Below are positions 2 through 28,382 of a DNA stretch of 64,000 nt, piece after piece. The stretch covers positions 86,129-150,128 of the forward strand of contig JAGXRP010000006.1 in assembly GCA_018335795.1 (NCBI GenBank), in the 5' to 3' direction. Every line of letters starts with the position of its first letter. Position 1 is the first letter of the stretch. Under the pieces are notes generated by a model. The model did not search any database and was not told the origin of the DNA. It was given only the letters and a program-made list of their open reading frames with translations. A program made the translations under genes and the position numbers. This DNA comes from Desulfobulbaceae bacterium (GTDB lineage: Bacteria > Bacteroidota > Ignavibacteria > Kapaibacteriales > UBA2268).

Positions 2-175
2 GTTGATGGACAACAAAACTTTTCTGATACTCAAGTAATTGCTGAAAATTTGCTTCTACCCCATTGGTTTTGGGCATTTACTATTTTAGCTTTCTCGGTT
101 TATATTATTTATCTGAGTTTCAAATATGTGCTAACAAAGAAATCACCGAACAAAATCAATGCAGTTGGGGTTTAG
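2..175 (+). CDS. C-terminal fragment of a membrane protein (cut by window start)
   Basis: An open frame enters from the left edge and stops with TAG at 173-175, giving about 57 residues. It contains one clear hydrophobic segment (roughly residues 21-43, rich in F, W, I and Y) followed by a short basic tail with three lysines, typical of a final transmembrane helix with a cytoplasmic end. Too little is present to name a family. Its end overlaps the end of the convergent lipoprotein gene by 33 bases, so the two genes meet tail to tail. That it is a real gene is inferred from the membrane-protein composition. Confidence 0.5.
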   Translation, partial: VDGQQNFSDTQVIAENLLLPHWFWAFTILAFSVYIIYLSFKYVLTKKSPNKINAVGV

Positions 176-1237
176 ACCGACGGGGATTTTTCTGGCGGTG
201 CTATTTCCACTAATTTGAGATATTGTGCCGTTAGTTTGATGATTTTTAGCATTTGCGACCCAAACTGAGCCATCAATTGGCGAAACCGAAAGAGCATAAA
301 GTATATCATTATTATCAGTGGAAATTAGGTTTCCATAAATTCCACTTTGAAAAGCAATAAATGATATAGCAGCGTTGGTTTGAGTCTTGTCAGAGCGCTT
401 TTGGTCAATAAAAAATAATGAATCACCTTGAATTGATAGCGACAATCTGAAAGGATTGCATCGCCAATGTCGCCCTATCGAGTTATCCGATGTATTGATT
501 TCTACGATACCGCCCAAAGAATCGGTTAGAGAAGGTAAATTATAATATGCCGCATATAGCATTTGATTTTTCGGGTTATAGACTACTTCACAGACATTAG
601 GGCCTATTTCGATTTTATTGATTTCAGTTTTTGAATTAATATCAATGACTGAAATCGTTTTCGCATACTCATGATTTGCATTGAAATCGCCATAAGCAGA
701 ATTGGCGACGTAAATTATTCCTGAGCTTTCAAGGCAAATTCCTTCGGGTTGCGGACCAACATCAATCATTTCACCTTTGAACTCAAGCGTTGAACGCTCT
801 ATCAATGCTACTTTGCTTTCAAAAAGCAATGTGCAGTAAATATATTTTGAATCAATTTCCATTTTTCGAGGTCCTGAATTCTCCGGAAGACTGATTCTTT
901 TAATCGTTTTTAAATTTTTGAGATTTATTACCTCGATAAAATTTCCGATTGTGGATGATATATATATGGTATCATTCTCGATTATAATGTCGTTTGCAGT
1001 ATCGCCCAAGCGAAACCCGACATTGCTTTGCGAATACGCTTCAACAACTGTCTTTCCCGAAGCAGTATTGATATAAGTAATTTCCGAATTGTCATAGCCC
1101 ATCAAACCTTCGCACAGAACGAGACAATCGCCATAATTCACTTCGAATTCTTCCGAAATTGCAGGATTACTCGGTGTTTTCACACATGAGGTAATGCCCA
1201 AAATGATTAATAAAATTGAAATTAATTTAGTAATCAT
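143..1237 (-). CDS. BtuG-like beta-propeller surface lipoprotein
   Basis: A 364-residue lipoprotein: hydrophobic signal followed by a lipobox ending at Cys18 (GITSC). The mature part reads as YncE/YVTN-type propeller blades, with repeated patterns such as 'GPQPEGICLESSGIIYVAN' and 'GNLISTDNNDILYALSVSP', each a short strand-turn-strand unit. Known biology: BtuG of Bacteroides is a surface propeller lipoprotein that binds cobalamin and sits on BtuB. Here the gene is the last of four behind a cobalamin riboswitch, and its start overlaps the preceding gene by 4 bases, so translation is probably coupled. I infer a B12-capture role from fold plus context. Another ligand-binding YncE protein is the alternative. 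Confidence 0.72.
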   Translation of the reverse strand: MITKLISILLIILGITSCVKTPSNPAISEEFEVNYGDCLVLCEGLMGYDNSEITYINTASGKTVVEAYSQSNVGFRLGDTANDIIIENDTIYISSTIGNFIEVINLKNLKTIKRISLPENSGPRKMEIDSKYIYCTLLFESKVALIERSTLEFKGEMIDVGPQPEGICLESSGIIYVANSAYGDFNANHEYAKTISVIDINSKTEINKIEIGPNVCEVVYNPKNQMLYAAYYNLPSLTDSLGGIVEINTSDNSIGRHWRCNPFRLSLSIQGDSLFFIDQKRSDKTQTNAAISFIAFQSGIYGNLISTDNNDILYALSVSPIDGSVWVANAKNHQTNGTISQISGNSTARKIPVGLNPNCIDFVR

Positions 1238-2154
1238 AGTTTGACAAATTTGTAAATTGATAAAATTTGACCTTGTGAATCTGCTATTTGCATTAAGTAA
1301 ATGCCTGAACTATAGCCGCTAATTGGAATTTGCAAATAATCGCTAAAATTGTGAGAATTTACTTTACGACCATACATATCAAAAACTGATGCAATTAAAT
1401 TAATATTAGATTCATTGCTAATAACTTGAATATAATCATAGTTAGAATGAATTGTAAAATCATATTTATTATCAAATTGGATAATACTTGCCAATGATTC
1501 ATCGGCTAAATAACGGGCTGAAACTGCGTCCAAATCAAATCCTGAGAGAATATGTTCGGGATTATAATATTTGTGTTTTGTGTCCAATGTTAAAATAATG
1601 TCAGTAAAATCTGTGAGTTTAATATGAGTGATGAACGACAAGCCCACGTCATCTAAATCGAAAGCATCGCCACCACATGCAGGATGAATGAATGGGTCTT
1701 TTGTGCCAATAACCGGAGTTAATCCTGCCAAGCCTTCCAAAGTTTCAGTATCATATGGAAACTCGATAAAATGTATTCCATCTTGGCTAACAGCAACCTT
1801 TGCAGGTTCAGCGAAAATCCCTTTATTTATTGGATTCAAAAAGGCATTTTCAAATATAATGAAATCATATCCGGGACCGTTAAACAATGCTTTACCCTTG
1901 AAACCAACTATGATTTCGCCGCCAATACCAATCGGAAGCACATCTGCAGTGGCTGAAGCCGGCACCTGCAAACTTGCTTTGTCGGAGGGCGGTCCGAAAA
2001 TATTTTCAGGGAAATGACTTTGCCATTCATACTCTTCAATGTAAACACCCGGTGTGAATTGATAAACTGTATCAATGAAGCCTTGCTCATATTCCTGCGA
2101 AAACAACATAAAAGGTATAAAAATGAATAATATTATTGAAAAATAGATTCTCAT
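1234..2154 (-). CDS. Exported beta-sandwich cell-surface protein of the B12 locus, T9SS substrate
   Basis: 306 residues with a signal peptide (cleavage after about residue 20, ...LFSQ). The central domain (about 25-215) has the pattern of a widespread 'cell surface protein' family: a hydrophobic stretch GPGYDFIIFENAF, then 'VAVSQDGIHFIEFP' and a late 'GFDLDAVSARY'. The last 75 residues form a T9SS type A sorting module (VFDMYGRKV... SGIYLMQIADSQG), so it should be carried across the outer membrane. It overlaps the genes on both sides by 4 bases, which ties it to the riboswitch operon. Surface proteins adjacent to BtuB in Bacteroidota can bind cobalamin, so an accessory B12-binding or docking role is inferred and not proven. 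Confidence 0.65.
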   Translation of the reverse strand: MRIYFSIILFIFIPFMLFSQEYEQGFIDTVYQFTPGVYIEEYEWQSHFPENIFGPPSDKASLQVPASATADVLPIGIGGEIIVGFKGKALFNGPGYDFIIFENAFLNPINKGIFAEPAKVAVSQDGIHFIEFPYDTETLEGLAGLTPVIGTKDPFIHPACGGDAFDLDDVGLSFITHIKLTDFTDIILTLDTKHKYYNPEHILSGFDLDAVSARYLADESLASIIQFDNKYDFTIHSNYDYIQVISNESNINLIASVFDMYGRKVNSHNFSDYLQIPISGYSSGIYLMQIADSQGQILSIYKFVKL

Positions 2155-4094
2155 TGATTTTCTCCGTAAATGAATTGCAAAGATGCTCTGAAGATTCTGC
2201 CCGGCATGGGATAATTTTTGATGATTTCAAAATCGGTATCAAACAGATTTTTCACATCAAAACGCAATTGAAATGCGTATTGCTCGAAATTAAATTTCCT
2301 CGTCAATGAAACATCATAAATCAAATAATTATCAATTATCGAGCTGTGATTATTGTCACGTAGTGAATATGCAAAAGATGAGTAATTAAGCGTGTTGCCG
2401 AGCACGAAATCTTTATAAGTAACAAACAAAGTCAAGCCCAAACTTTCTTGCGGAAAGTACGGCAGTAGCTTGTCATAGTTTGGGGATTCGAGTTGTTTGT
2501 CAATCACATTCATACGAGTGTAAGCAAAACTATACGAGAGCAAATTATCGAATAAAATCCCGCTCAAATCCAATTCAAAACCGTATGAATCAACTTTTCC
2601 AACATTTTGAGCACTCCATTGAACCGGCGATTTCGGCACTGAAAGTATCATATCGGTAGTATTGATGTAAAACACATTGCTTTGGATATTAAAATACTCA
2701 CTCATTTGTGCTCTGGCACCAAGGTTCACAGAAGTCGAACGCTCGGGCTTTAAATCGGAATTGCCATAATTCAAATAGTACAATTCATTGAAGGAAGGCA
2801 CTCGAAAATTATACGAAATATTAATTGGAATTTCAACCGCACCATCGAATGGCATTAATATCACGCCCAAAAATGGCGACAAAGCGGATGAATTATCGCT
2901 GAACATATCCAATCTCGTAGCCGCAACAACTCGCAAATAGTCTGAAATTTGACGAAATTCAGATGTCAATCCAAGGGAAAATCCACTTCGCTCAACTTCT
3001 CCGCCGAGAGTCTTGTCAAGCATATCGCCTGTCAACTGCGAATGAAATAGTTCAGTTGAGAAATTCAAATCAAAATATTTTTTTTTCAATCGTAAATTAC
3101 CTGAAAAAGTCAAATCGTTTGTGTAGAAATTTGTGTTGCCGGAATAGTCGAGTGGTACGTATTTGCTGTCGGCAAAATGATTTTCAGAATATTTATACGA
3201 AAGAGATGATTTTAAAAACATAGATTCGGAAAATAGCTTAGAATAATTAATGCTCGTAATTGAGTAAAATTCCTCGCTACGTGCTGTAAGCGATTCTATG
3301 CTTCCTTGCAATATTGCACCAGGCACACCTTTATCGGTAATATTTGTTATTGATGATAATCGCAAATGGCTGGATGAATCGAGCGAAAAGCCTGAAATTA
3401 GCCCAAAAGAGTAAGATGAGTAATCAGCATTTACGCGGTGATAATTATATTTTTTGCCGTATTGATTGATATTTAAACTATAATCGCCGTTTGTAGTCCG
3501 ATATTCCCCAAATGCCGAAATATTTAATCTGCTCAAATTAGTTCCGCCGCTCAGACTGAGGAGGCGCTCACCGAAACTACCTATATTGGTGATGAACTTG
3601 GTTGATTGCATATTATAATTACTTCCAAAATCAATCACTCCTCCCATTGCATTGCTACCGTGCATAGCGGACATTCCTCCGCTCGTGGTAAGAATTCGGT
3701 CAATCAAAGCGACCGGAATCACGTTCAAATCAATCATACCGTTCTGCGAGGAATTAAGTTTTATGCCGTCAAGCATTATCACAGTTTGCGATGCCATGCT
3801 ACCACGCATAGATATTGTTTTGATTCCACCCAAGCCACCGTAATCTCGGATTTTAATCCCGGGAGTAAAATTCAATATTTCGGAAATTTGCATAGGCATG
3901 ATTTTATTAATGAATTCTGCATTGATAACGCTTGTACCGGAAAAAACCGCCAAGGGTGTCATGATATCTCTCGTCGCAACTACAGAAATAGTCGGGAACA
4001 CAACTCTCGAACTGTCGTTTTCTATGGATTCGCCTGCAATAGAATTCCCATAAGAAAAGAAAAACTGCATTAGCGATATAATAAGAAACTTCAT
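2151..4094 (-). CDS. btuB: TonB-dependent outer-membrane receptor, BtuB-like
   Basis: A TonB-dependent receptor of about 647 residues, predicted to import cobalamin into the periplasm. After a signal peptide (MKFLIISLMQFFFSYGNSIAG) comes a plug domain with the usual landmarks: 'TISVVATRD' region, 'ISEILNFTPGIKIRDYGG', 'SMRGSMASQTVIMLDGIKLN' and 'AMHGSNAMGGVIDF'. The remaining 450 or so residues are a 22-strand-type barrel ending in 'PGRIFRASLQFIYG'. I prefer the ATG at 4094 because it puts the signal peptide at the N-terminus. An upstream ATG at 4142 adds 16 unneeded residues. The size is close to BtuB and smaller than SusC receptors. Cobalamin specificity is inferred from the riboswitch. Confidence 0.85.
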   Translation of the reverse strand: MKFLIISLMQFFFSYGNSIAGESIENDSSRVVFPTISVVATRDIMTPLAVFSGTSVINAEFINKIMPMQISEILNFTPGIKIRDYGGLGGIKTISMRGSMASQTVIMLDGIKLNSSQNGMIDLNVIPVALIDRILTTSGGMSAMHGSNAMGGVIDFGSNYNMQSTKFITNIGSFGERLLSLSGGTNLSRLNISAFGEYRTTNGDYSLNINQYGKKYNYHRVNADYSSYSFGLISGFSLDSSSHLRLSSITNITDKGVPGAILQGSIESLTARSEEFYSITSINYSKLFSESMFLKSSLSYKYSENHFADSKYVPLDYSGNTNFYTNDLTFSGNLRLKKKYFDLNFSTELFHSQLTGDMLDKTLGGEVERSGFSLGLTSEFRQISDYLRVVAATRLDMFSDNSSALSPFLGVILMPFDGAVEIPINISYNFRVPSFNELYYLNYGNSDLKPERSTSVNLGARAQMSEYFNIQSNVFYINTTDMILSVPKSPVQWSAQNVGKVDSYGFELDLSGILFDNLLSYSFAYTRMNVIDKQLESPNYDKLLPYFPQESLGLTLFVTYKDFVLGNTLNYSSFAYSLRDNNHSSIIDNYLIYDVSLTRKFNFEQYAFQLRFDVKNLFDTDFEIIKNYPMPGRIFRASLQFIYGENQ

Positions 4095-4153
4095 GCACAA
4101 GGCTTTTGAAGAAAATACTTTATCAATAATGCAGTTTAACATTTTAATACCAT

Positions 4154-6523
4154 TTACTTGACAATAGTCAAGGGCTGTGTTTTGCTGATTTTACCGTCTG
4201 AAACCGTAATATAATATGCTCCTGATGCCAAATTCTCGATTGGGAGCACCAAATGAATCATATTATTTGATGGAATAATATTTTCCAACGAAAAGACAAA
4301 TTGACCGAATTGGTTAAATATATCCACTCTGATATTCGACATATTGTACCTTTCATCGTTTAGAACTATAGCCAAACTACCGTTTGTTGGATTAGGATAA
4401 ATCAAATCACTATTGACATTTCTTGGATTCGTTTCAACAGATACCGGATTAGTATTAACGAAAATCACTTCGCTTGAGTAAGCCCCGTCAGACTCATACG
4501 GCGTGACGAAAAGTACTGATAGAGGTTTGGCATCATCCAATACCATATCTACTTGTTCAACTTTATATCTAAGCAATATGATTTCTTCTAGATAAACTTG
4601 TTCATTAAAATCGTCCATTGATAAAGTCCTAATATCGCTATTATAAGTAGGAACCAAAATCATATCGAACAAAGCGTAAGGTTGTCCGGGGTATCCGGAA
4701 CCAATTGTACCAAGTTTTGTTGATTTAGAAGTATTATCGCTTAGGAAAAGCTGATGAAGAGCATAATCATCTTTTGAAGTGACAAAAAGCGATTGCAAAT
4801 ATTGCGAAAATAGTAAATGATTCGCATTCAATCCAACATCTACAGCATTGTCGAGAGTAAAATGTTCCATATGTTTAATAGCACCGAACAAAAGTTGAGA
4901 TTCGGAACTTGATTCATTTTTATTTGTCAAAATAGCCAAACTAATTATTGGCTTGGGATTTCCTTCAACAAAATGAGGATAATACATGATATCACGAACG
5001 TGCATACCTGCATAAACTCGTTGTATAACCGAATTTGACTGTAAATTAATCACTAACACAGAATCCCCACCATCAAAATGGACAGCTGCCAATAAATGAG
5101 AACCAGCTAAATCAAGTGCTATTGCATCAATTGGGACTATTTCCGGGTCGTCTATAGTAAAATCATCCAAATTATACGAAGCTATATAGTTATAATGAGG
5201 GATGTAGATTGTGCGGTTTTCGCCATCAATAGCCGGTTTGAATGGCTCTTTCAAGCTGCCTAAAGGAAAAGTATATTTATTTGTACTGACGCCTTCTTTA
5301 TCAATTGTCCACCATGAAGGAGATTGGGAATCGTCACCGAGGCAAAAGACGTGATACAATTCCTGCACATCATCATAATATGAGCCTATTGGTCTGATGC
5401 CAACTAAGGGATAGGAAACAATTGCTTCATCAAATGGTGATTCATCTGTGAATTTATTTATAGTTATATAATTTGCACTTGAATATGATTCATCGTAAGA
5501 TGCCAACATAAAGAGGTATTCATTGAGAGGAAGAACAGTTTCGATTTTCTCACTATATTCACCGGAAATTAACTCTACACAACCTGTTTGGAGATTTATA
5601 ACACGTACATCGCCTTGATAAGTGGCTACATACAATTTACCTTCTGAAACAAAAATATCTCGTGGACCATTGAATGCAATTGTACCTGTATAAAATGTTC
5701 TGGTTTCATGAGTTTCTACGTCAATCTCGACAATTTTATGGTCTCCATTGACTGAGACATACAATTTGCCATTATTGAATATCATATGGTTAGGACTTTT
5801 CCCGACAATAACTTCGTCCTCTAAATCAAAACTAAACATATGGTTAATAGCGCCATATTGGACAACTCCGTTTGCTTCTCCGTAAGGACCATTAGACAAC
5901 ATTGCTATCGAAATGCCTTTTGTGGATTGGTAGTAAACTGATTGCATTACGTTTTCTTTGGCAGTAACACTTTGCAAGACTTGCCCCGAAGTTAAATTCA
6001 AAACATCAAGTTTGCCTACTTGGTCGGCTCCCGGGGTTACGGTCAACAAAAGGTGCCCACCAGCTAAAGCAACAGAAGTAGCATTGATAAAGGCTACCTG
6101 GTCATCGTGAATATCAAAATCAATCATATCGAAGGCTTTGATGACTCCTTCGAAAGGTATATAAACTACATCGTTAGCCCAATCGAAACCCGGACGAAAA
6201 ACTTCTACACCGCTGGGAAATTTGAAGAATGAGTCAAAGTCAAATTTCTTCTCAGCTTTGAAGATGATTTCCCCCATTTCTTCGGACTCTTTGATTATCC
6301 ACCACGATGGATACTCGTCGCCTTCGTCAAGCAGACCATTGTAATTTGCATCTTTTCCGGCACAAAAAACATGAGTCGTGCCATCGTTCGGGGATTTGAC
6401 AATATGAACCGGAGTGTATCCTACTCCTACCATATCGTAATAAGAATACCCCTGTGCTGATAAAGGTGACTCAGATGCAAAAAGTATGACCAATATAGCA
6501 GCAAAATAATAGAATTTAGCCAT
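4154..6523 (-). CDS. Tandem beta-propeller T9SS protein, first gene after the cobalamin riboswitch
   Basis: 789 residues: signal peptide 1-24 (...PLSAQ), two homologous halves (about 28-345 and 370-680) and a T9SS type A sorting module from about 708 (IYPNPTNGS... ASGAYYITVSDGK). The halves share landmarks in the same order: HVFCAGKD/HVFCLGDD with SWWIIK/SWWTID, YIPFEGVIKAFD/YIPHYNYIASYN, ALAGGHLLLTV/DLAGSHLLAAV and GAINHMFSF/GAIKHMEHF. Blade-like strands and DVRVINLQTG-type turns suggest two YncE-like propellers made by an internal duplication. It is directly downstream of the riboswitch and upstream of the BtuB-like receptor. I infer a surface B12-binding protein that is not lipid-anchored like BtuG. 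The sequence does not prove ligand binding. Confidence 0.7.
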   Translation of the reverse strand: MAKFYYFAAILVILFASESPLSAQGYSYYDMVGVGYTPVHIVKSPNDGTTHVFCAGKDANYNGLLDEGDEYPSWWIIKESEEMGEIIFKAEKKFDFDSFFKFPSGVEVFRPGFDWANDVVYIPFEGVIKAFDMIDFDIHDDQVAFINATSVALAGGHLLLTVTPGADQVGKLDVLNLTSGQVLQSVTAKENVMQSVYYQSTKGISIAMLSNGPYGEANGVVQYGAINHMFSFDLEDEVIVGKSPNHMIFNNGKLYVSVNGDHKIVEIDVETHETRTFYTGTIAFNGPRDIFVSEGKLYVATYQGDVRVINLQTGCVELISGEYSEKIETVLPLNEYLFMLASYDESYSSANYITINKFTDESPFDEAIVSYPLVGIRPIGSYYDDVQELYHVFCLGDDSQSPSWWTIDKEGVSTNKYTFPLGSLKEPFKPAIDGENRTIYIPHYNYIASYNLDDFTIDDPEIVPIDAIALDLAGSHLLAAVHFDGGDSVLVINLQSNSVIQRVYAGMHVRDIMYYPHFVEGNPKPIISLAILTNKNESSSESQLLFGAIKHMEHFTLDNAVDVGLNANHLLFSQYLQSLFVTSKDDYALHQLFLSDNTSKSTKLGTIGSGYPGQPYALFDMILVPTYNSDIRTLSMDDFNEQVYLEEIILLRYKVEQVDMVLDDAKPLSVLFVTPYESDGAYSSEVIFVNTNPVSVETNPRNVNSDLIYPNPTNGSLAIVLNDERYNMSNIRVDIFNQFGQFVFSLENIIPSNNMIHLVLPIENLASGAYYITVSDGKISKTQPLTIVK

Positions 6524-6606
6524 AGTAACTCCTAAAAGTTTATATAAAATTTTTTCGTAAGAAAAATCGGTAAGTCATTTCGATGTGGCGGTACCAATTT
6601 CTCATT

Positions 6607-6626
6607 ACGTTTGTTTACGCAAACGC
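6607..6626 (-). promoter_or_regulatory. Hairpin downstream of the B12 aptamer, possible expression platform
   Basis: On the minus strand GCGTTTG and CAAACGT form a 7-bp stem (one G-U pair) with a 6-base loop. It follows the aptamer and precedes the first operon gene by about 84 bases. No run of T follows it. A role in switching is inferred from position only. Confidence 0.4.
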
Positions 6627-6654
6627 TGTGTCAAATTACACTCCAATGAGTATC

Positions 6655-6822
6655 GTTAAGTCTGTCTTCTGGCTTCGGTATCATCCTTTGCAACTTGCCT
6701 TCCCACCTAATCCGGTAGTGGCTGTCTTCCGACATAAGTTGCATCGTACTCCGTTACAGCGGCGTAACCGCACAGGATTCTCACCTGTTTCCGAAAAACA
6801 TTTTCATGTTTTATCACTTAAC
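6655..6822 (-). promoter_or_regulatory. Cobalamin riboswitch (AdoCbl-type)
   Basis: On the minus strand the leader carries the class hallmarks: GGAAACAGGTGAGAATCCTG, then the C-G-rich GCCGCTGTAACGG region, GGAAGACAGCCACT, and near the 3' end GAAGCCAGAAGAC. A closing P1 helix is visible: GTTAAGTG (around 6815-6822) pairs with ACTTAAC (6655-6661). It lies about 130 bases upstream of the tandem-propeller gene, so it should repress the four-gene uptake operon when cobalamin is plentiful. A further hairpin at 6607-6626, between aptamer and gene, could be part of the expression platform. It has no U-tract, so translational control is more likely than termination. Confidence 0.93.
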
Positions 6823-6830
6823 GACGCATA

Positions 6831-6838
6831 CAAATATA
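6831..6838 (-). promoter_or_regulatory. Bacteroidota-type -7 element (TATATTTG) for the B12 operon
   Basis: TATATTTG matches the TAnnTTTG -7 consensus of Bacteroidota sigma-ABfr promoters and lies 9 bases before the 5' strand of the riboswitch P1 helix, where a transcript start is expected. A TTG at the ideal -33 spacing is not evident, so the match is partial. Confidence 0.5.
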
Positions 6839-27000: not shown

Positions 27001-28382
27001 TTTTCTCACCATTTCCAAATCTTTATGTTTACAGATATAACAAAGAAAGCAAAGAATTTGAAAAATTTTGGTGGTACCCGTCAACTTTGTCCAATTCAGC
27101 ATTAATCGCAGATATTGACGGAAACGGCATGAACGAAATCGGATTCACTACATTCAATTCGATGCGATTTTTCGAGTATCGCAAAGGATTTGATGGACCC
27201 GGAGTACCAACTAATTTCAAGGGTGTGGCAATTGATGCCGTAAGCGGTAAATTGACATGGGATATGATGCCGGATGCTGAAATGTATTTGGTATATCAAT
27301 TAGTTCAAGATGGTAATAACGTGAATGCAGTATTGATTAAAGAAACCACTTTTCATGAGCTTGAAATTCAGGGATTGACTCCCGGTGGCACTTACGAATT
27401 TGTCTTGCGAAGCTTCAATTCTACTATGCCTGACAAGTTGAGTGATTACTCAGATGTTGCTTTTATCACTGCAATTGCACCGGCAAAATTCAAAAGTACC
27501 GAAAGCATCGAAAAGAATGTTTTAGAGGTTGTTTTTAGCGGGTTTTTACCTTACAATCACCTTGAAGCCGGAATATTCATCTTATTCGATGATGAAGGAA
27601 AATACTTAACTACAAGTTCGAGCGTTGTTACAAGAAATGATTCAGTTGCTATCGTAACATTTCCACTAAATTTTGAAGAGAATAAAAACTACAAACTTTT
27701 TATAAATCAGTTTCGGGACAGATTTGATAATTTAGTGAATGCTGATTCTGCATTTTTTACATATTCGGCAATACCGAGCGATAATGAAATGTTTTTGATT
27801 AAACTCGAATTTTTATCCGAAACATTATTGCAGTTAGAGTTTTCGGAGCCTGTTGAATCGGAAAGCTCTTCAAATAGGTCAAATTATGTGATGAAGCCTT
27901 TCGGAGAAGTCCTTTTTGCTGAACGTAGCAATACTGATTCTACATTAGTTTTACTCAATATCAGTCAAAGTCTCAGAGAAAGAGGTTCGAGAGGATTTGA
28001 CTATACAATATCAGCCTATAACATCAACTCTACAAACGGAACCCCAATTACAAAGGGTCCGGGTAATACACTTGGTTTCGTAATTTCATCCGATGACCTT
28101 TTAGATACTTATGTTTTCCCACATCCGATTGTTCTTTCCGAAGAACCAAATATATTTTTCGCAAATTTAACTCAATTTTCAACAGTCAAAATCATGAGTC
28201 TTGACGGTGTAGAAATAATCAGTTTGTTCGAAAACAACGGGAATGGTGGCGTTGAATGGGACGGCAGAGACAGACATGGTTCACTCATTCCGCCCGGTAT
28301 TTATACATATGAAGTGAGTGGCAAAAACTCCGATGGAATAGAAGTATTTGCGAAAAAGAACAAATTCGTTGTATTGCCATGA
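24075..28382 (+). CDS. Giant subtilisin-like (S8) protease with FG-GAP and FlgD-type C-terminal domain
   Basis: 1435 residues with a signal peptide. The S8 catalytic domain lies at about 145-470, with Asp in VIDTGIDFEHPDL, His in GDHGTSVSG and Ser in SGTSIAAPHVSA all present. Downstream are about six FG-GAP/VCBS-like calcium-loop motifs of the form D-x-[DN]-G-[DN]-G (SNGDGIPEIF, DLDGNGKKDL, DLDGDGYLEL, DIDGDGIPEI, DLDGESGDEI, DIDGNGMNEI). A fibronectin type III-like segment at about 1050-1140 and a FlgD-Ig-like end ('GGVEWDGRDRHGSLIPPGIYTYEV') follow. That end is a common alternative sorting/anchoring tail in this phylum. It is likely a secreted protease. The next gene overlaps it by 4 bases. 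Confidence 0.88.
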   Translation: MNKNIRIIITYAIVALSLQLNPSIELHSANSKSYIIKYNGNLEQRISSVNFDLEVRKVFRDEMVNAEKISDQLMNSEAKNLLRVLGNYYEVKIKTSEIDKFNELFQNDESLISITPNHIYSINNVVKTNDSLFLQQWNLKQVNALKAWAKADGKGVIVGVIDTGIDFEHPDLIGGLWINTLEDINGNGRFDAWSVNEVRDGVSGDLDGIDNDGNGFVDDVIGYDFVDQDVVNFGDYRDPDPIPEDEGDHGTSVSGIIAASTNNEIGIASVAPGARLLTSKAFDISGNAEADDIAKAIIYAVLNGAKVLNFSFGERYESPIMYDAIKFAYNSGCVMVTSAGNTGWFGEHYPSIYPEVINVGGTNSMGGRYGRSNYGSFLDLVAPGEQVMTTIAGGDYANVSGTSIAAPHVSAIVAMLLEIDPTLKPSEIHGILAASSYDIGAEGWDVFFGSGILDAYEAVNFVGSSVFMIDSPKNEAEFYSNRTPILEIYGSVATPLFDSYVIKIGRGILPEVWTEVHTENRQKINEKLGSIDISNLMTGKYNVSLFVNLKNKKTIERRMTLNITNENDPAKFEYLNVVSAYANDKRVILIGAKTSKKGTMTLKYRANENDDYTYLKQSKHKSIFHSIEIFSGLTPGQKYQAIAEVITNSGDTLTREFEISVENDVWTTEKFDPKPYSIHRSYINNNHFDLYGDGNPVFVVNDMSSLNIGTTKIYQYQSGQLVLRDTSVAAWIPVGMGDSNGDGIPEIFATAQFNSVSEQGNSLGDNPFTKQVFKNPIGTTFWGEQMYDLDGNGKKDLIGYRYEVENRHYLVYEHQNGEYKIKTTAELPENLRNVPITRNSAIADLDGDGYLELCFVNTNSNVLIYQYQNGQFNIEWVDSTKKSNSNQFLTSADIDGDGIPEIIHMFAESEVLFQNNEAPSNIWTARVLKSNSQNSYEEIWKEHFYGVKQGFVRTLFSYRNGVSSGDLDGESGDEIIFSPFPNLYVYRYNKESKEFEKFWWYPSTLSNSALIADIDGNGMNEIGFTTFNSMRFFEYRKGFDGPGVPTNFKGVAIDAVSGKLTWDMMPDAEMYLVYQLVQDGNNVNAVLIKETTFHELEIQGLTPGGTYEFVLRSFNSTMPDKLSDYSDVAFITAIAPAKFKSTESIEKNVLEVVFSGFLPYNHLEAGIFILFDDEGKYLTTSSSVVTRNDSVAIVTFPLNFEENKNYKLFINQFRDRFDNLVNADSAFFTYSAIPSDNEMFLIKLEFLSETLLQLEFSEPVESESSSNRSNYVMKPFGEVLFAERSNTDSTLVLLNISQSLRERGSRGFDYTISAYNINSTNGTPITKGPGNTLGFVISSDDLLDTYVFPHPIVLSEEPNIFFANLTQFSTVKIMSLDGVEIISLFENNGNGGVEWDGRDRHGSLIPPGIYTYEVSGKNSDGIEVFAKKNKFVVLP

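Follow-up and report, generated by a model that had tools for sequence, protein, structure and literature searches.

Near the start of the 64,000-nucleotide stretch analysed here (the window; GenBank assembly GCA_018335795.1, contig JAGXRP010000006.1, order Kapaibacteriales), a cobalamin riboswitch is followed on the minus strand by four genes that code, in this order, for a 789-amino-acid (aa) protein, hereafter the lead, a 663-aa receptor, a 306-aa protein with a tail for the type IX secretion system (T9SS) and a 364-aa BtuG. We propose that this operon is a B12-repressible scavenging system and that the lead is a circularly permuted propeller of the BtuG family which most likely binds cobamides through its N-terminal half (N-half) and hands them to BtuG and BtuB; we give this reading a probability of about 0.72. 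The basis for it is the riboswitch, the gene order, the predicted propeller fold of the N-half, the homology to BtuG, the permuted order in sequence profiles, the T9SS tail and the conserved linkage to riboswitches. BtuG is the surface B12-binding propeller lipoprotein of Bacteroides (PMC6143338; PMC10404256) and, in the available parts of the literature, is described as a lipoprotein lid for BtuB. The lead would be a permuted, T9SS-tailed and duplicated relative of this already known protein.

The first-pass annotation of this DNA had described the lead as two propeller-like halves followed by a T9SS tail, and each of these parts was recovered. AlphaFold2, run with 19 rows on the N-half, which is the part of the lead that the model covers, predicted a propeller with a predicted local distance difference test score (pLDDT) of 85.8, a predicted template modelling score of 0.87 and 28 strands, which would make up seven four-stranded blades, that is, a seven-bladed propeller. 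In VIA-align the model resembles YncE of E. coli (3vh0_A, Z 29.7) and human RACK1 (4aow_B, Z 29.6). No BtuG chain was among the Foldseek and VIA matches listed for the N-half (50 rows, dominated by WD40/RACK1-type propellers), and this was not counted against kinship. The C-terminal half (C-half) was found by profile A1 with an E-value (E) of 8.3e-36; this profile was built from N-halves and single propellers, and the N-half of the window lead is one of its rows, the C-half is not. Residues 708-784 match the T9SS sorting domain PF18962 with 36.8 bits. With a sorting domain above the curated cut-off and a T9SS in the genome, the lead is a predicted T9SS cargo, and it has this tail in place of the lipobox of BtuG.

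PorZ combines a pair of propellers with a C-terminal domain of T9SS type at about the length of the lead, which raises the question whether the lead is a PorZ-like part of the secretion machine itself, of which PorZ is described as an essential surface component. The overall architecture is the same and one of 15 A1 members has a weak PorZ match (E 0.0023). However, the genome has a separate PorZ, a 770-aa frame scoring 327 bits against a cut-off of 260 for NF052228, the listed matches of the window lead and of four further tandem leads, taken to E 10, contain no PorZ, and the lead family follows cobalamin riboswitches and consists mostly of single-propeller proteins. The lead thus belongs to a different family and its identity as PorZ was rejected, since the genome's own PorZ is elsewhere and no NF052228 match is among those listed for the lead; we regard a PorZ-like role as very improbable.

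Profile comparisons place the lead family as a distant relative of BtuG that appears to be circularly permuted, with its blades in the order 5-6-7-1-2-3-4. Among solved chains, profile A1 matches 8blw_B at E 1.6e-24 for the chain and 3dsm, which is BtuG2 (PMC6143338), at E 4.7e-10; within 8blw_B, residues 47-193 (the N-terminal blades) align to positions 161-300 of the profile, and the later residues 290-379 align weakly, with 14.4 bits, to positions 80-162. The xEG motif is near residue 38 in BtuGs (at 35-61 in 31 of the 34 that have it, among 47 BtuGs) and near residue 200 in leads with a single propeller (at 172 or later in 54 of the 58 that have it, among 66 single leads), the search patterns for the two families being slightly different. 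In canonical BtuG the blade with xEG comes right after the lipid anchor, and in the profile comparison the lead departs from this order. When the 66 single leads were compared with the 47 BtuGs in hhalign, the linear order scored 188.5 over 208 columns and the doubled BtuG 260.3 over 370 columns in an alignment that crosses the junction, signal and tail regions included. The first part of this permuted alignment alone (lead 1-179 to BtuG 155-323) scored 72.6 with E 2e-13. In a rotation scan with signal and tail removed, the score rose from 192.4 (E 1.3e-26) unrotated to 266.6 (E 3.1e-37) at a rotation of 150-165, and the aligned length rose as well towards the permuted register; in the control, where BtuG was compared with BtuG rotated in steps of 45, the peak was at 0. 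The lead starts at the equivalent of residue 207 of the window BtuG, which we read as the probable boundary between blades 4 and 5.

A different explanation of these alignments is that the lead is an independent propeller that arose by repeat duplication around a shared unit of blades 1-4 and not by true circular permutation of BtuG. Propeller repeats are alike, non-permuted hhalign registers score 97-99.5 and other registers over much of the length 97-103, so that the inner repeats align in several ways though far less well than in the permuted register, and the match of the first ~160 positions of the family to later BtuG-type blades is the weak one of 14.4 bits given above. However, the significance of the first part when aligned alone, the score of the whole permuted alignment and the joint increase of score and aligned length in the rotation scan all argue for permutation, and we consider an independent origin unlikely.

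The lead shares conserved residues with BtuG in its counterparts of BtuG blades 1-4. Among the BtuG columns with at least 70% conservation, 34 could be aligned, and in 21 of these the commonest residue is also that of the lead family; the strongest shared residues, in the numbering of the window BtuG, are E43, G44, G78, N82, P123, R124 and E165, and E43, G44, N82, P123, R124 and E165 are retained by 91-100% of leads. In BtuG2, B12 is hydrogen-bonded by highly conserved residues of blades 1 to 4, according to the parts of the report available (PMC10404256), and we infer that the conserved residues of the lead correspond to these B12-bonding residues. Thus, the lead resembles BtuG as described in the accessible parts of PMC6143338 and PMC10404256 in being a member of a seven-bladed propeller family encoded with BtuB in a cobalamin-riboswitch operon, but unlike BtuG it would have a permuted blade order, it has a T9SS tail where BtuG has a lipid anchor and two propellers in tandem, and it is the product of the first gene of the operon and coexists with a canonical BtuG.

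The linkage of this family to riboswitches was followed in 149 relatives, in which a search with RF00174 found 135 riboswitches in 125 genomes; open reading frames (ORFs) were called in the DNA downstream of all 135 and classed with iterated profiles. Related operons do carry cobalamin riboswitches. Taking ORFs that start no more than 900 bp away, with few genes near contig ends, the gene recognised first after each of the 110 riboswitches in the order of the window was a lead in 83 cases, a TonB receptor in 8, BtuG in 7, a member of the 306-aa family in 7, another gene in 3 and none in 2; these counts include misses of the ORF caller (G077, counted as other, has a lead there and G055, counted as none, has a BtuG) and call a gene a lead when its lead-profile score equals or exceeds its BtuG-profile score, some ratios being near 1. 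After the 25 riboswitches of the rest of the class it was a receptor in 16 cases, BtuG in 3, a lead in 3, a member of the 306-aa family in 1 and another gene in 2. Counted from the leads, 90 of 102 merged A1 lead hits among the matches listed follow a same-strand riboswitch, with a median of 224 bp from the riboswitch to the propeller domain; the 102 come from 113 A1 rows, from the top to E 9.4e-23, the weaker rows (mostly BtuG-type partials, with some lead fragments) having been dropped, and they count one ORF (G125) twice and include fragments split between contigs. The other 12 hits are four fragments at contig starts, the leads of five genomes of genus g9 and of G024, and two second copies (labels such as f1 and g1 are family and genus numbers of the search tool). 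A lax Rfam search of the eight riboswitch-less leads that could be retrieved found no cobalamin riboswitch; in genus g9 (L220, L222-L225) the lead-receptor pair is retained all the same. Neighbouring genes in genus g9 (CheB) and in family f4 (spermidine synthase) appear unrelated to B12.

Most leads have about 450 aa, with a single propeller and a C-terminal tail, and the tail profile matches 60 of the 84 complete leads; a simple lipobox pattern is found in 8 of these 84 leads versus 34 of the 47 BtuGs. Among the matches listed for a sample of 395 genomes of the phylum, full-length leads are confined to the window's order and to G125 of family f13, where G135 and G144 have leads as well, and matches elsewhere are limited to the part shared with BtuG. 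In the order, 91 genomes bear a lead and 89 of them also have BtuG; in this count G003, G069 and G136, with best BtuG matches at only about 1e-20, are scored as without BtuG. Because of this co-occurrence, replacement of BtuG by the lead was rejected and leads would supplement BtuG. The same count also fits a further alternative, in which the lead is an accessory regulated by B12 that does not bind it, such as a docking or assembly factor for BtuB-BtuG or an adhesin, and owes its BtuG-like residues to ancestry only, for a genome that has BtuG does not strictly need a second binder. Against an assembly factor stand 20 loci of family f2 in which a lead follows a riboswitch and no recognised same-strand btuB or btuG is present in the 1.3-14 kb fetched. 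The tandem leads bear on this alternative as well.

There are 18 tandem leads in 15 genomes, and their degeneracy was measured on 32 positions conserved in single leads, which themselves retain a mean of 28. The window lead retains 25 of 32 in its N-half and 13 of 32 in its C-half. The C-half is likewise degenerate in genera g1 and g19, the N-half is degenerate in genera g25 and g4 (6-11 of 32, with 24-29 retained in the C-half), both halves are retained in families f6 and f8 (23-30), and family f13 is intermediate (15-26). The loss of one half, be it the C-half in the window or the N-half in other genera, is in favour of a non-binding accessory, but 17 of the 18 tandem leads, G125 being the exception, have at least one half with at least 24 of the 32 positions, and in f6 and f8 both halves have at least 23. 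On these grounds we consider a non-binding accessory quite unlikely. In a tree of 102 domains there are at least three label changes each for the tandem N and the tandem C rows on starred branches; the tree has long branches, and a single gain followed by two losses could also account for three changes. Tandem forms probably have more than one origin. Two genomes have several tandem-propeller genes in a row behind a riboswitch and before the receptor, two in G046:C106 (L083) and three, that is, six propellers, in G051:C1 (L085).

In the operon itself, the first-pass annotation had proposed that a cobalamin riboswitch commands four genes, of which the later ones overlap or nearly abut, and that these include a BtuB-like receptor, a BtuG-like propeller lipoprotein and a T9SS surface protein; all of this held up on measurement (Table 1). 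The riboswitch, for which the RF00174 gathering score is 31.5, is upstream of all four genes and 118 nt from the ATG of the lead gene. The lead and receptor genes are 11 bp apart and the two remaining junctions are 4-bp overlaps. A hairpin predicted in the leader between riboswitch and lead gene has a z of -1.84, and since 9 of 200 shuffles were equally good, no control mechanism was drawn from it. The receptor has Plug (PF07715) and TonB barrel (PF00593) domains, and its best NCBIfam match is the vitamin B12 receptor TIGR01779 (132.9 bits, E 1.4e-38, the equivalog cut-off being 599.7); this match and the context suggest that it functions as BtuB. The phmmer matches of the 364-aa protein include solved chains annotated as YncE family protein, namely 8ptd/8ptf at E 1.5e-24 and 8blw_B at E 3.1e-24, which from their length and match we take to be BtuGs, as well as 3dsm at E 1.5e-7. 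With an E limit of 1e-8, the BtuG profile A6, which has the window BtuG among its members, matches this gene and nothing else in the genome.

Table 1. Features of the riboswitch-controlled operon (positions in the window)
Feature	Position	Strand	Evidence
Cobalamin riboswitch aptamer, RF00174	6642..6836	-	71.1 bits in cmscan (E 1.6e-15), covering the whole model, 1-189
Lead gene, 789 aa	4154..6523	-	ORF; signal region by eye, two tandem BtuG-like propellers, apparently permuted, T9SS type A tail
N-terminal propeller, residues ~30-352	5468..6436	-	AlphaFold2; conserved positions 25/32
C-terminal propeller, residues ~365-690, degenerate	4454..5431	-	Profile A1, E 8.3e-36; conserved positions 13/32
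T9SS type A sorting domain, residues 708-784 of lead	4172..4402	-	PF18962 36.8 bits (cut-off 27); TIGR04183 27.1 bits (cut-off 23)
BtuB-like TonB-dependent receptor, 663 aa	2151..4142	-	PF07715 and PF00593; TIGR01779 below equivalog cut-off
T9SS-tailed surface protein, 306 aa, domain probably remotely related to BtuH	1234..2154	-	Profiles A4/A10, PF18962
BtuG lipoprotein, 364 aa, canonical blade order	143..1237	-	phmmer; lipobox-like ITSC (by eye); BtuG profile A6

Taken together, the model that we favour is as follows. At low cobalamin the riboswitch would permit expression of the BtuB-type outer-membrane receptor and of three surface B12-capture proteins, namely BtuG as the canonical lipoprotein lid and two proteins exported by the T9SS, one BtuH-like and the other the tandem propeller. 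The propeller chain of the lead would end between the equivalents of BtuG blades 4 and 5, with the C-terminal T9SS tail and not an N-terminal lipid as its attachment; its N-half would most likely bind cobamides through residues conserved in its counterparts of BtuG blades 1-4, and the lead would retain the cobamide at the cell surface and pass it to BtuG/BtuB. For the degenerate C-half, a role in spacing or docking is probable. Because the lead is of a BtuG-related family, shares an operon with BtuB and BtuG and is conserved behind cobalamin riboswitches, a second capture protein, as had been presumed at first, is its best-supported reading, with cobamides as the likely ligand. The permuted look, the single propeller as the rule in the order, the frequent degenerate half and the BtuH kinship of the 306-aa protein go beyond what had been noticed before. 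BtuG2 is a lid on BtuB2 and holds the nucleotide loop in the cleft between blades 7 and 1, as far as the available text of PMC10404256 tells. The permutation would shift the chain ends away from this cleft; our guess is that this lets the protein reach further or turns its capture site towards the medium.

Several observations weigh against this model. The case for permutation is made from profile scores, which here concern a repeat protein, and the non-permuted hhalign registers align over much of the length with scores above that of the first permuted part, though far below that of the whole permuted alignment. Conservation of the B12 site is indirect, the bonding residues of BtuG2 having been matched by blade location, and BtuG-like propellers may serve ligands other than B12, with iron piracy (PMC13142918) as a possible case. 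The C-half of the window lead has lost most of the conserved positions. Six genomes have a lead and no detectable riboswitch, and two second copies are also without one. Lastly, 24 of the 84 complete leads have no tail-profile match; most of them, many in family f2, end by eye in a divergent tail-like sequence, and two (G009, L088; G027, L105) are tailless permuted-type propellers (357-367 aa) that begin with a lipobox-like sequence, which suggests that the anchoring of the permuted family can switch.

A bolder version of the model, which we put forward tentatively, is that in one lineage of Bacteroidota a second B12-capture system came about by permuting BtuG, with a C-terminal T9SS anchor and a different face turned to BtuB or the medium, and by repeated tandem duplication, often into one active and one degenerate propeller; the six propellers of one genome would then form a secreted, cobalophore-like trap that feeds BtuB-BtuG.

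The 306-aa protein is, by profile comparison, remotely related to the B12-binding BtuH domain. BtuH is represented by BtuH2 and by the C-terminal domain of BtuG1 (PMC8941943, accessible in part), BtuG1 being a protein of about 70 kDa with a C-terminal BtuH-homologous extension (PMC10404256). Residues 396-497 of 8blw_B, a 663-residue chain, are matched by profile A4 (19 members of the 306-aa family) at E 3.2e-6 and by the tail-free profile A10 (16 members) at E 1.3e-5; the BtuH2 chain 7biz is matched weakly, at E 0.075 (A4) and 0.24 (A10). Because of its position and of the weaker match of the same motif to 7biz, the 8blw_B match is taken to lie in the BtuH domain. The likeness extends over about 100 positions (GGxIxVGF...DF...NAxx...EPxxVxVSxD). 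Unlike BtuH2 as described in the accessible part of PMC8941943, the 306-aa protein has no room for the N-terminal immunoglobulin-like/PKD domains, and unlike BtuH it has a T9SS tail and no Pfam domain beyond this tail. PF18962 scores 28.8 bits on it (cut-off 27) and matches 11 of 19 members of the family, and the tail profile of the lead matches 16 of 35 members. The protein also matches NF033170, the LIC_13355 family lipoprotein, at E 1e-9 with 38 bits against a cut-off of 120, and AlphaFold2 with five rows gave a poor model (pLDDT 55.8). Two surface proteins of the operon besides BtuG would therefore be kin to known B12 binders. The B12-binding jelly-roll proteins BtuJ/DUF4465 are also extra surface B12 binders in riboswitch-regulated loci, in the parts of PMC13398666 and PMC12751083 that are available; unlike BtuJ, the operon's proteins have no DUF4465 among the Pfam matches listed, and a BtuJ/DUF4465 identity of the 306-aa protein was rejected on this basis.

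In seven genomes of genus g44 (L153, L167, L169, L171, L174, L142 and L147), the gene after the riboswitch codes for ~190-250 aa and precedes a divergent 306-aa family gene, and no BtuB was recognised next to this pair. The leading gene in L167, the one that was scanned, codes for DUF6580, which may be part of a cobamide transporter.

The host genome (3.5 Mb in 82 contigs) has a full MetH and zero matches to CobI/CbiL. The host thus appears to be a cobalamin user and a likely scavenger, and de novo synthesis is probably absent, as judged from the single enzyme CobI/CbiL. The T9SS is present, with SprA at 957.5 bits. A second cobalamin riboswitch (102.5 bits) is found outside the window at G000:C80:1173-1366 (L001/L070), before a second BtuB-like receptor gene that runs off the end of a 3.2-kb contig.

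A search covering mostly open-access papers found none that connects BtuG with the T9SS in the sense of T9SS-exported B12 capture; a paper on the BAM complex that names both deals with other matters in the passages available. In Flavobacterium psychrophilum a riboswitch is described before a TonB-dependent transporter, and the portion of that literature available does not tie T9SS to the riboswitch; the available passages of a paper on Kapabacteria and cobalamin describe no B12 uptake in this group. The presence of the lead family after most cobalamin riboswitches of the order suggests a second architecture for B12 capture at the Bacteroidota surface, one that would tie T9SS to vitamin scavenging, and the permuted lead would offer a natural way to test which tether point BtuG needs to hand over B12. 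Unrelated to the operon, a 1437-aa open frame in the window matches the final part of the PorZ model in a T9SS tail-like stretch at 28089-28355.

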